From the NCBI GenBank assembly GCA_019359075.1, contig JAHHIB010000073.1:1-44947 (forward strand): a stretch of 44,947 nucleotides of DNA, in the 5' to 3' direction. The notes under the pieces were generated by a model that did not search any database, had not been told where the DNA came from, and saw only the letters and a list, made by a program, of their open reading frames with translations. Within the stretch, counting starts at the first letter, position 1. The number at the start of each line of letters is the position of its first letter. The position numbers and the translations under genes are program-made. This DNA is from Kalymmatonema hyalinum WJT4-NPBG1. GTDB taxonomy: Bacteria; Cyanobacteriota; Cyanobacteriia; Cyanobacteriales; Nostocaceae. Positions 11,385 to 44,947 of this stretch are shown in pieces.

Positions 11385-11801
11385 CTACTTGGGAATGCTA
11401 AAGCCAGCCTTTTCGGCGGTAGCTGTATCTGCAAAGCAGATATTGGGCTTGACCTTTTCATAATCGAGTGATTTGGGAGCATGATATATGTTACCCCGCT
11501 TTTTGGTAACTACGCCCTTAACAAGAGCATTGCCCGGACAGGTGGTTGCTCCTTGGGGGGTAACACCTAACTTCTGAGCTTCAGCCGAAATCCCACTTGT
11601 TGAAGAAGTACCTGTTGTCGGGTTTCCAGAACTATCTGAGGTTCCAGTTCCACTAGACGGTGCAGTTGTAGATGTAGATTCGCCAGAGTCGCTAGATGGA
11701 GAAGTATTGCCTTCGTCAGCCTTTTTCCCACAACCCGAGAGGGCTAATATAGTCAAAAGTGTGATGGAAATAGTCAATTGATGTCGGAATATATTTTTCA
11801 T
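11385..11801 (-). CDS. Lipoprotein with Ser/Thr-rich linker and C-terminal sunset-type domain
   Basis: This 138-residue protein starts with a lipoprotein signal peptide; the lipobox is LALSGC, so Cys24 would be lipidated and the protein membrane-tethered. Residues about 30-75 form a low-complexity Ser/Thr/Gly linker. The C-terminal 50 residues (CPGNALVKGVV, KKRGNIYHAP, YEKVKPNICF, TAEKAGF) match the compact sunset-type fold found in nuclease and Ada-like proteins, usually read as KGN-x-IYH-x-Y-x-KP-x-CF-x-AxxAGF. Its function is unknown. The stop codon lies in a small hairpin (AGTAG-CGATA-CTACT) next to a relic IS605 end. Confidence 0.75.
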   Translation of the reverse strand: MKNIFRHQLTISITLLTILALSGCGKKADEGNTSPSSDSGESTSTTAPSSGTGTSDSSGNPTTGTSSTSGISAEAQKLGVTPQGATTCPGNALVKGVVTKKRGNIYHAPKSLDYEKVKPNICFADTATAEKAGFSIPK

Positions 11802-11812
11802 CGAAAATTTGG

Positions 11813-12212
11813 GTAGAAACCCCGTCCTTGTAGGACGGCTTTACATTTTTGAACCATTACCGCCTTGGGGCTACTCAATACCGTGTACTTTTGCGCTGTA
11901 CTTTCGTTCGGGCAATTACGAACTGATATTTTTCACCCTGTACGCATAACGGTTTTGCTCCGTGGAGCCTCCCAATAGGGGTTAAGTTAGCCTGGACAAT
12001 GTTATTGGTCGGTACTTTATTGAGAACACTGGCTTAACCCTCTAAACCTGTTTAATCCTCAATTTCTAGAGCTACAGACTGGCGCGCGCATCCGTAGGTA
12101 GGAACTTAAACGCTTACCAATAACGTAGTACTCAAGGTACTTAGTCGGGTCAACTAATCCTAAAGGTTTGAGGCTAGAAGCCCCTTGCCTTTAGGCAGGG
12201 GTGTTGACAGCC
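11813..12212 (+). ncRNA. Candidate HEARO-like (IscB omegaRNA-type) structured RNA without its protein gene
   Basis: About 400 nt with no ORF but dense, mutually consistent pairing: a 5' hairpin CCGTCCTTGTAGGACGG; GGGTTAAG (11979-11986) with CTTAACCC (12033-12040); GTTATTGG (12001-12008) with CCAATAAC (12117-12124), crossing like a pseudoknot; AGTAC-TCAAG-GTACT; and a 3' hairpin CCCCTTGCC-TTTA-GGCAGGGG followed by GTTGACAG, like an IS605-type right end. The first part (CCATTACCGCCTTGGGG, then GTGTACTTTTG) recurs at the right edge of the window with a different but equivalent 5' hairpin, which supports a conserved RNA. Size, position at element-like ends and the motif GGTTTGAGGCTAGAAGCCCC are what I would expect of cyanobacterial HEARO RNAs, which precede iscB genes. 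No iscB follows; the next gene is on the other strand. Confidence 0.55.
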
Positions 12213-12278
12213 TGTTTTGATTGCTGAAATTGCACCCATTAGACCCTAAGTGGGTCGGTTTGATTAAACTCAATGTAA

Positions 12279-22369: not shown

Positions 22370-22576
22370 TTGCTTATTACCTCCTACAAAAATATAGCAT
22401 TTTTTGTAGAAAATCATGAAAAAAAAGAAACAAAGGGTTAAAACCCTTTGTGTCGGGTTTCATCCCCTCTCTGTTCGCGTAGCGTGCCGCAGGCATAGAG
22501 GAGGGGTTCTCACCCTCCCATCATGTTTTGATAGTTACAAGCTTTATCTTTCTACACACCTAGTTTTTCCATTACT

Positions 22577-25898: not shown

Positions 25899-26001
25899 TA
25901 AGTAAGTACGCGAGAAAAAATCAAACTATGTAAAGAAAAGTAAGCTTGAAAACTAGCTCGTAGTAGGCGCTTTAGCGCTAAAGCGCTTACTACATTCCTT
26001 T
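25899..26001 (+). repeat. Direct repeat copy 1 (about 105 bp, with large palindrome)
   Basis: It shares about 90% of bases with 28242-28346 in the same orientation. The conserved end is an almost perfect inverted repeat centred on TTTAGCGCTAAA and flanked by GTAGTA and TACTAC. The second copy runs straight into a broken tnpB, so this may be a solo left end of the same element family. Confidence 0.8.
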
Positions 26002-28252: not shown

Positions 28253-28346
28253 GCGAGAAAAAATCAAATTATCTAAAGAAAAGTAAAGCTTGGAAACTAG
28301 TTCGTAGTAGGCGCTTTAGCGCTAAAGCGCTTACTACATACCTTTG
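28242..28346 (+). repeat. Direct repeat copy 2 (about 105 bp, with large palindrome)
   Basis: Second copy of the repeat at 25899, ending exactly at the start of the tnpB remnant. A partial match to its palindrome (GGCGCTAAAGCGCAACTAC) occurs again near 29272, just after that remnant, which suggests the palindrome belongs to the ends of that element. Confidence 0.8.
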
Positions 28347-43928: not shown

Positions 43929-44296
43929 TTGACGTACTCCTCGGCATAAAATGTACGAGGATTCTTAAAAGATGTTCCAATGTAGGCTAAAGCCATACAT
44001 TTCCACCTTAATTCCTGTTTTTTAGACTCTTAACTAGACTGAAAATCAGTCCCCGCTACTACCGTCTCCGCAGGCATTTTGATTTTACGTCCACGACGCG
44101 TCCCACCGCAGATTACGGTACAGTCCAAAGACTACGTTTCTACCCTCGGAGTCCAGTTATGGATATCCTGTATGGATCGCCACCCAGTACCTTCAAGAAT
44201 TCTACCAGAGAAACATGATTGTTAAAACCTGTCGTGTCACGTTTCATCCCCGGATTAAAAGGCAGGGGTTCTCACGCTCCCGTTATGCTTTGATAG
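43929..44296 (-). mobile_element. Miniature IS200/IS605-type element keeping tnpB's last codons and the right end
   Basis: Both ends match the tnpB element at 20961-22534: right end TTGACGTACTCC with its hairpin (plus strand), left end through GGGGTTCTCAC and TTTGATAG. Inside, on the minus strand, the final tnpB codons survive (RRGRKIKMPAETVVAGT, then a stop), so the segment that in larger elements gives the guide RNA is kept while about 1.2 kb of tnpB is gone. If still transcribed, its guide would begin GTCTAGCTAAACTGC, the end of the ABC exporter gene read antisense. It cannot move by itself. Confidence 0.75.
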
Positions 44297-44825
44297 ACAA
44301 CTCATAGGACAACTCATGGTCTTCATGAGGAGCAAAATCCCAGTTTAGGAGTTTTTCCAAAAGTTGACTCTGACGTTTGGCATTTTGCTCAATCTCTTTC
44401 AGTGCCACAATTGTAGCACTGCGGTCAAGTTGACCTTGACGCCATAGTTGAGTCAAGTGAGATGTGCGATTCAAACACGACTTGAACTCGATAGCCAGAG
44501 AATATTGAAACTTCCTTAATTTTTGATAGTGAAAGTCTACATTGAGTGACACACTTAAAGCATGAGGGTCGATTTCGTAAGGAGCAAGACGCCAGTTTAG
44601 GAGTTGTTCCAACAGTAGAGTCTGAAGTTCGGTGTGTTGCTCAACGATTTCAAAAGCTTGAAGAGTGGCATTGTGGTCGAACCGAGTTTGACGCCACAAA
44701 TGAATCCAAGATAGCAGACAGTTAAGGGAAAATCTAAATTCAATAGATATAGAAGATAGAAATTTTATATACTTTTGGTTAACGTAATCTGCATCTATCT
44801 TAGTACTGACTTTATTTTTTCTCAT
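44283..44825 (-). CDS. Tandem HisKA-like (DHp) protein lacking the phosphorylated histidine
   Basis: A 180-residue protein made of two similar ~64-residue repeats (21-84 and 105-168). Each resembles the dimerisation/phosphoacceptor domain of cyanobacterial hybrid kinases: IEFRFSLNCLLSWIHLWRQ, then IVEQHTELQTLLLEQLLNW; and IEFKSCLNRTSHLTQLWRQ, then EIEQNAKRQSQLLEKLLNW. The usual form is HELRTPLN followed later by IERNAKLQTQLIEDLLD. The acceptor His is Ile in both repeats (I28, I112), and no ATPase domain follows. It may form four-helix bundles with kinases as a decoy or scaffold; that is inference. The last codons (LSIKA and stop) lie in the end of the miniature IS605 element. Confidence 0.7.
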   Translation of the reverse strand: MRKNKVSTKIDADYVNQKYIKFLSSISIEFRFSLNCLLSWIHLWRQTRFDHNATLQAFEIVEQHTELQTLLLEQLLNWRLAPYEIDPHALSVSLNVDFHYQKLRKFQYSLAIEFKSCLNRTSHLTQLWRQGQLDRSATIVALKEIEQNAKRQSQLLEKLLNWDFAPHEDHELSYELSIKA

Positions 44826-44886
44826 AAGACCTCGTGGGAAGTATGGAAACTCAGCGTCTTCAGACCTGAGAGGAAATACGACTCGT

Positions 44887-44947
44887 GCGACTTTAGTCGC
44901 TTTGTTCCATTACCGCCTTGGGGTTACTTGAATCGGTGTACTTTTGT
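44887..44947 (+). ncRNA. Start of a second HEARO-like RNA, cut by the window edge
   Basis: A hairpin GCGACTTTAGTCGC is followed by CCATTACCGCCTTGGGG and GTGTACTTTTG, the same order and spacing as at 11821-11896, where the hairpin has a different sequence. Whether a protein gene follows lies outside the window. Confidence 0.5.

Follow-up and report, generated by a model that had tools for sequence, protein, structure and literature searches.

A nuclease-less HEARO element with an additional 3' RNA domain at a start codon in Kalymmatonema hyalinum, a probable non-autonomous relative of IscB transposons

The window, meaning the whole 44,947-nt stretch of DNA analysed here (Kalymmatonema hyalinum WJT4-NPBG1, contig JAHHIB010000073.1), carries a structured element inserted directly in front of a small lipoprotein-like gene, and part of a second copy at its far edge. 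The features are as follows.

11385..11801, minus strand: small lipoprotein-like gene, its start codon adjoining the element (ORF; start conserved in relatives)
11798..11801, minus strand: ATGA, target- or TAM-like tetranucleotide overlapping the lipoprotein start codon (empty sites; ORF 11385-11801)
11802..12208, minus strand: the complete insertion, 407 nt (empty sites of both congeners; 11-copy alignment)
11802..11843, minus strand: terminal end of type RE1 with hairpin 11822-11838 (alignment, hairpin)
11855..11951, minus strand: additional 3' RNA domain, a long closed stem enclosing two hairpins (covariation; not in Rfam)
11981..12208, minus strand: HEARO/omegaRNA scaffold (RF02033, 149.9 bits)
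12209..12224, minus strand: 5' flank, predicted guide of about 16-20 nt ending at 12209 (directly 5' of HEARO position 1)
44286..44825, minus strand: 180-codon ORF (L082) whose ATGA start abuts the second copy
44826..44947, minus strand: second copy, cut short where the contig stops, with an RE2-type end and a portion of the 3' domain

When the whole window was scanned against Rfam 15, a single match reached the gathering threshold, HEARO (RF02033), at 12208-11981 of the minus strand. The match spans the full length of the model (1-211) and scores 149.9 bits against a gathering cut-off of 83 (E 1.2e-31). The original prediction, made from the letters alone, had named HEARO, and the covariance run bears out that identity, although the strand on which the RNA had been read was wrong. 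The lipoprotein-like gene downstream matches no Pfam family, yet has orthologues in both congeners (G291 and G292). In these congeners the corresponding sites are empty, reading ...TTTCAGCAATCAAAACAGGCT immediately followed by ATGAAAAATATATT, while the window has 407 nt (11802-12208) between the two halves. The two empty sites place the insertion in ATGA, between the 5' flank and the ATG of the lipoprotein gene, without target-site duplication, and such precise insertion at a short target is what is found in ISC and IS200/IS605 elements. The extent first proposed, 11813-12212, was thus close, and the empty sites correct it to 11802-12208. An alignment of copies within the same genome for their exact ends, a check proposed with the original prediction, was made with no end pattern imposed, and 11 of 11 copies end at ATGA.

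Guides of the IscB and IsrB type are copied from the sequence 5' of the scaffold, and the guide of this element is therefore predicted to be 12209-12224, or slightly more, on the minus strand. A stretch identical to this predicted guide abuts ATGA in the empty sites of both congeners. A guide at 11790-11815, as originally proposed, is ruled out by the strand and by the empty sites, and that region proves to be the 3' end of the element together with the start of the downstream gene. Because both congeners have empty sites, the insertion is recent in the lineage of the window. Domestication of the window copy, an option raised with the original prediction, is rejected since the insertion is absent from both.

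The element consists of two transposon ends, the HEARO omegaRNA and a second structured RNA domain, and nothing else. As originally described it is free of convincing ORFs, the ORF list giving only mechanical frames of 40 and 46 aa within it. No iscB, the HNH-endonuclease gene that accompanies HEARO RNAs, lies near the window copy; other protein-less copies also pass the RNA model, so Rfam membership is independent of an adjacent iscB. An ORF of the size of a Y1 transposase is likewise lacking in the 407 nt, so the element can be at most a non-autonomous member of the ISC or IS200/IS605 group. By the RNA tests made it is a HEARO member and, in our judgement, a non-autonomous relative of IscB transposons. 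Domain V of group II introns (RF00029) gave no match at gathering threshold in the window, and the element is not an intron. A search for phage relatives returned no match. No sigma-70-like promoter was detected on the minus strand, and the single weak match on the plus strand did not rise above shuffles.

Two long-range helices had been proposed from the sequence, of which one stands. The pairing of 12001-12008 with 12117-12124 is the HEARO core helix; both arms were located in 57 copies, and 54 of these pair throughout, with many compensatory versions. Conserved pairing of 11979-11986 with 12033-12040 is rejected, as full pairing occurs in only 4 of 51 copies, nine copies with displaced ends having been excluded by hand from that count. 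An IS605-like right-end hairpin had also been called; the structure near 12176-12206 is part of the first HEARO helices, and the other terminal hairpin is that at 11822-11838.

The 3' domain was aligned from 30 of 56 distinct copies, namely those without nested inserts. It folds into two hairpins and a long closed stem interrupted by internal loops, comprising 28 pairs, 14 of which are changed on both sides, with 96.3% of cells paired. The covariation score of 0.391 compares with 0.187 in shuffles (0 of 500 as high) and with no more than 0.060 for slid partners. Support comes from the inner helices, the long closing stem showing little variation (0 of 9 pairs changed on both sides). The covariance model R1 matches the window at 11850-11992 with 157.7 bits, the window copy being part of its training set. 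A known RNA family for the domain was sought and rejected, since the sole Rfam 15 match at E<=10 is a 12-bit snoRNA hit. Across cyanobacteria, a core model of the domain finds a match at E<=0.001 in 27 of 386 genomes and 13 of 143 genera, a count that includes G040 and G006, where the match lies in introns. The full model matches in 18 of 388 cyanobacterial genomes. HEARO is above threshold at 15 of the 20 loci of one scan of 3'-domain loci and at 10 of the 12 loci of another.

The genome to which the window belongs (G000; 8.4 Mb in 174 contigs) contains 26 HEARO hits, 21 of them above the cut-off. At 16 of the 26 an adjacent gene of the iscB or isrB type is undetectable, in keeping with the expectation of many copies without the protein. 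Intact iscB genes number six in the same genome, 433-461 codons long, and a seventh is broken. One intact iscB (C48:3528-4466) lies on a contig that has no HEARO hit. Six further, shorter proteins with an RRXRR domain and without a full IscB profile are IsrB-like, and are encoded at these positions:

C138:139334-139825, IsrB-like gene
C138:167839-168399, IsrB-like gene
C26:31316, IsrB-like gene
C55:40125, IsrB-like gene
C36:26494, IsrB-like gene
C36:40320, IsrB-like gene

Weak HEARO hits lie upstream of four of these six genes, the associated RNAs reaching only 41.7-54.3 bits with RF02033 and having no 3' domain. At one IsrB-like locus (L023) the element appears to end in GGAGG shortly before the ATGA of an ORF that by eye is NAD-epimerase-like.

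The congener G292 has 61 HEARO hits. Adjacency was examined at 85 HEARO loci: all 26 of G000, 53 of 61 in G292 (the eight weakest excluded) and six of seven in G291. Counting any tblastn match as an adjacent gene, fragments included, 36 loci have an iscB or isrB gene or fragment, 31 have the conserved 22 nt of the 3' domain downstream, none has both and 18 have neither. Of the 54 loci that lack the 22-nt pattern, 52 (all but L024 and L215) were searched with the covariance model of the domain, which added one 3'-domain locus (L174), bringing the total to 32 of 85, none of them with iscB. In protein-bearing loci this model reaches at most 21.8 bits; the strong hit at L196 belongs to a neighbouring element, L183. 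Because no locus examined has both the 3' domain and iscB, the 3'-domain elements are not simple deletions; something else replaces the gene. A single origin of the 3'-domain group on the HEARO tree was considered and rejected, as the starred branches force at least four changes in what is a quick tree of 230 columns only. The domain sits where iscB sits in its relatives and, judged from this layout, would be part of the host mRNA leader. Its most likely role is protein binding or RNA folding.

The same domain was found outside HEARO elements. It lies within domain VI of two group II introns of G040, which score 60.0 and 57.1 bits with R1, and upstream of domain V in an intron of G006 with 37.9 bits, probably a third group II intron bearing the domain. 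The positions are:

L268 1458-1668, group II intron holding the 3' domain (G040)
L279 1458-1668, group II intron holding the 3' domain (G040)
L346 1493-1641, probable group II intron holding the 3' domain (G006)

Since R1 was built from element copies only, its hits are independent evidence for the introns. Two intron copies went into a second model, R2; among the 27 genomes of R2, G040 has the domain in introns alone and G006 has a single intron hit of 39 bits. The converse arrangement is seen in G033, where a group II intron on the sense strand lies inside a HEARO element (L267 1380-1634) and interrupts the guide RNA. This intron could splice out.

The second copy announced at the window edge is real, and it is cut by the contig end. 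Its end is at 44826 and the conserved 22-nt piece of the 3' domain lies at 44907-44928. Both window copies precede an ATGA that starts an ORF. The 3'-domain pattern matches 28 times in the genome as a whole, and 16 of these matches share one 25-nt end. For at least 9 of the 28, a contig end is no more than about 40 nt away (C26, C31, C34, C63, C79, C80, C118, C123 and C164); the assembly breaks at this element family, and the window edge is one such break.

Other repeats are present in the window. A 33-nt repeat (22502-22534 and 44264-44296) resembles sequence beside a Y1 transposase in L235 and is perhaps the end of another IS200-type miniature element. Direct repeats of 60 nt (25942-26001 and 28286-28345), 95% identical and with a palindrome inside, lie 2.3 kb apart. 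Between 1496 and 2550 seven 86-nt copies occur, mostly at a spacing of 138 nt (46 codons), and this is probably a repeat-protein gene.

The placement of the elements relative to genes was analysed by joining both flanks of each copy and calling ORFs, which was possible for 46 of the 68 copies in the list. Of these, 21 abut a start codon, 22 are intergenic and 3 lie inside a gene, against 67, 376 and 799 for other ATGA sites in the same stretches. With the end of L064 corrected, 22 of 43 non-intragenic copies are at a start, against 67 of 443 background sites (Fisher odds ratio 5.9, p 2.5e-7), the background being drawn from the same neighbourhoods, which ties the test to where elements survive. 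In genomes outside the genus the result was replicated, with 21 start, 19 intergenic and 4 inside against 48, 258 and 768 (p 8e-7), or 21 of 40 against 48 of 306 as the start share of non-intragenic sites. About half of the non-intragenic copies therefore abut a start codon, as against 15-16% of comparable ATGA sites. With RefSeq annotation in place of ORF calls, 49 kb of a Trichormus plasmid give a background of 22 of 116 (19%), so the ORF method comes reasonably close.

Ends in the wider set were located with patterns that require ATGA or GTGA to follow, and 68 of 68 are thus at ATGA/GTGA by construction; the unforced evidence for ATGA is the 11-copy alignment and the empty sites. ATGA/GTGA is absent at the expected end in L192, L154 and L295. 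Four copies without a recognisable end were dropped from the first set (L192, L063, L069 and L154), of which L063 shows ATGA by eye. The replication set comprised 69 loci, of which 44 have both flanks and 10 have the 3' flank only (7 start, 3 intergenic, outside the test); dropped were 10 without a recognisable end, one of which, L252, resembles another psb27 start by eye, 2 without an element hit and 3 duplicates. Mis-calls of the replication pattern include at least L253 and L255; L296 and L300 were scored as inside a gene though their ORFs look like true starts, and none of these entries was changed in the count. A copy on a Dolichospermum plasmid (L351) ends 56 nt before the annotated start and is a miss.

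Genes behind the elements include gatC, ilvN, mnmA, psb27 and that for NADH dehydrogenase subunit B (nuoB, which is ndhK in cyanobacteria), as well as nicotinate phosphoribosyltransferase, pgeF, a response regulator and an HtrA-like protease. The protein models of gatC, ilvN, mnmA and psb27 start at residue 1-3 of the ORFs that abut elements. The psb27 start was hit in two families (L198, assigned by NCBIfam, and L064, assigned by likeness to L198) by elements that are only 74% alike, and the L064 element has a 92% sister at another site. A Shine-Dalgarno sequence in the element end was considered as a general feature and rejected, being present in many RE2 elements and iscB elements and absent from those with RE1, the end of the window copy. 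In two genomes (L319 in G181 and L320 in G261) a decayed HEARO element lies about 100 nt upstream of an ORF that is dnaK-like by eye.

The preference for start codons could be the product of survivorship only, ATGA being targeted anywhere while intragenic and promoter-splitting insertions are lost and those at starts remain; we give this account slightly worse than even odds. Intragenic copies are indeed few (3 of 46 and 4 of 44). In the young group with identical ends, only 4 of 16 copies from the window's own genome have an ORF of at least 60 codons at the site (4 of 19 when three G292 copies are added), as against 30 of 68 copies overall, so survivorship can explain part of the bias. However, intragenic sites were already excluded from the comparison, and the contrast between roughly 50% and a background of 15-16% (ORF-based) or 19% (RefSeq) persists, and psb27 was hit independently in two families.

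As to how the element would move, Y1 transposase hits number 17 in the genome, fragments among them, and the element ends are common to elements that do carry family proteins. RE1, after TCAT, also ends an element with an IS891/IS1136/IS1341-type (TnpB) gene on the Calothrix brevissima plasmid AP018208.1, and in L238 an intact IS200/IS605 transposase gene (tnpA, by NCBIfam) is followed by an RE2-like end at ATGA. A HEARO end was not found in these protein-bearing partner elements. Mobilisation in trans by a Y1 transposase is well supported by this anatomy. The related enzyme IsrB prefers an NTGA TAM and nicks ATGA targets according to PMC9581776, which fits a putative role of ATGA/GTGA as the TAM of the element family.

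An iscB above the cut-off is present in 22 of 27 genomes with the 3' domain and in 9 of 27 comparison genomes (p 0.0008), the latter being hand-picked, 20 (f1) negative by the core model and 7 (f2) negative by the 22-nt pattern only. By family the figures are 12 of 16 against 4 of 20 in f1 (p 0.002) and 8 of 9 against 5 of 7 in f2 (p 0.55), a clear difference in f1 that vanishes in f2; without the two intron-only genomes they are 20 of 25 against 9 of 27. Among the 27 genomes with the domain, five have no iscB above the cut-off, with none in G229, G256 and G278 and fragments in G261 and G033. Service of the guide RNA by IscB in trans is possible and fits these data.

Persistence was addressed through insertions shared by two species, in which HEARO identity is 97.9-99.6% against 94.6-98.3% in the flanks (L008/L193, 98.7% against 96.9 and 94.6; L001/L171, 99.6 against 98.3 and 95.4; L017/L201, 97.9 against 97.3 and 95.3). 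In comparisons with a third species (L216), for which only the 5' flank could be compared, the values are 95.0-95.4 for HEARO against 94.3-95.0 in that flank. Over the 150 nt that follow HEARO, identity is only 67 and 61% in L008/L193 and L001/L171, where nested inserts differ. HEARO thus diverges slightly less than the flanks or equally, and selection on individual copies is not demonstrated.

The best explanation, to which we assign a probability of about 0.7, is that of a non-autonomous IscB-type (ISC, IS200/IS605) element whose movement and RNA-guided cutting would rely on proteins supplied in trans. A Y1 TnpA would move the element. Read-through from upstream, or an unrecognised promoter, would yield an RNA whose 5' end copies the host flank, and IscB made elsewhere would load this RNA. 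The complex could then cut element-free alleles, in which the flank is followed by ATGA, and element-bearing chromosomes would replace them. A preprint (PMC11870625) reports that TnpB acts as a gene drive for IS200/605 elements; the congeners carry exactly the flank and ATGA, and the same logic would let the guide direct IscB against such alleles. At a start codon the element would lie downstream of a host promoter oriented to transcribe the guide, and its later deletion would be costly to the host.

A bolder version can be framed, and we hold it to be doubtful. It would regard the protein-less elements as separate, ancient guide-RNA parasites in which iscB was replaced by a portable domain, employed by some group II introns as well, that lets the guide RNA capture IscB in trans or folds and expresses the leader of the host mRNA. 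Such elements would live between the promoter and the start codon of indispensable genes, the host promoter making the guide and the host being unable to afford the deletion.

It is improbable that the element is dead or purely parasitic, a miniature of which only the DNA ends matter, moved by transposase in trans while its RNA is inert. In favour of this, no protein gene is present; the 28 pattern matches with 16 identical ends look like a recent burst; the test for slow evolution at shared sites is weak; and some genomes have copies and no iscB. However, the pairs of both HEARO and the 3' domain are kept by compensatory changes across copies and genera, which DNA ends do not need, and the overall co-occurrence with iscB also speaks against inertness. 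That the elements are or become host regulatory leaders, controlling the gene behind them as sensors in its 5' UTR or as RNA-guided regulators, is very improbable, for although about half of the non-intragenic copies sit at start codons, gatC, ilvN, mnmA, nuoB and psb27 among them, with a conserved folded domain in the would-be leader, the window copy is absent from both congeners, the downstream genes are very varied, 21 of 68 copies precede a reading frame of at most 12 codons and only few insertion sites are common to species.

Standalone omegaRNAs have been noted before, and the case bears on why guide RNAs without a nuclease multiply; the defined ends, empty sites, donor iscB genes and second domain make service in trans directly testable. 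Insertion at the start codons of core genes (tRNA amidotransferase, acetolactate synthase, a photosystem II assembly factor and complex I) could reveal by what means an RNA-guided element secures transcription of its guide and keeps its place. Strangest of all is that two kinds of mobile RNA use one portable RNA domain; a domain common to omegaRNA elements and group II introns is possibly a handle for loading IscB. A covarying domain without an Rfam 15 family is a candidate new RNA, and both the domain and the start-codon bias look new. In the literature searched, which had most subscription papers outside its scope, no title or abstract opening announces a second RNA domain, its exclusion of iscB, start-codon placement or a link to introns. 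A term search within PMC9755519 and PMC13180657 returned nothing on ATGA or standalone RNAs.

Several known systems can be set beside the element. The founding papers are those of Weinberg in 2009 for HEARO, Altae-Tran in 2021 for IscB and Kapitonov in 2016 for ISC. With the HEARO/omegaRNA of IscB the window element shares the full-length covariance match, the guide position in the 5' flank and the ATGA/GTGA at the far end, which has been reported for HEARO; unlike it, the window element has an extra 3' RNA domain in place of iscB. It resembles ISC and IS200/IS605 transposons with iscB in its terminal hairpins and in the lack of target duplication, yet has neither tnpA nor iscB, while autonomous iscB relatives occur in the same genome, several of them ending at ATGA/GTGA by eye. 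Arthrospira has HEARO copies without a protein and Ktedonobacter has standalone omegaRNAs, and the likeness there is that of many guide RNAs with few or no adjacent proteins. IsrB with its long omegaRNA is a further relative, with IsrB-like genes in the genome and an NTGA TAM preference (PMC9581776) that fits the ATGA/GTGA edge, whereas the four IsrB RNAs found here match RF02033 weakly and are without the 3' domain. With group II introns (RF00029) the 3' domain is held in common by the two introns of G040 and probably by the one of G006, whereas the window element is without domain V.
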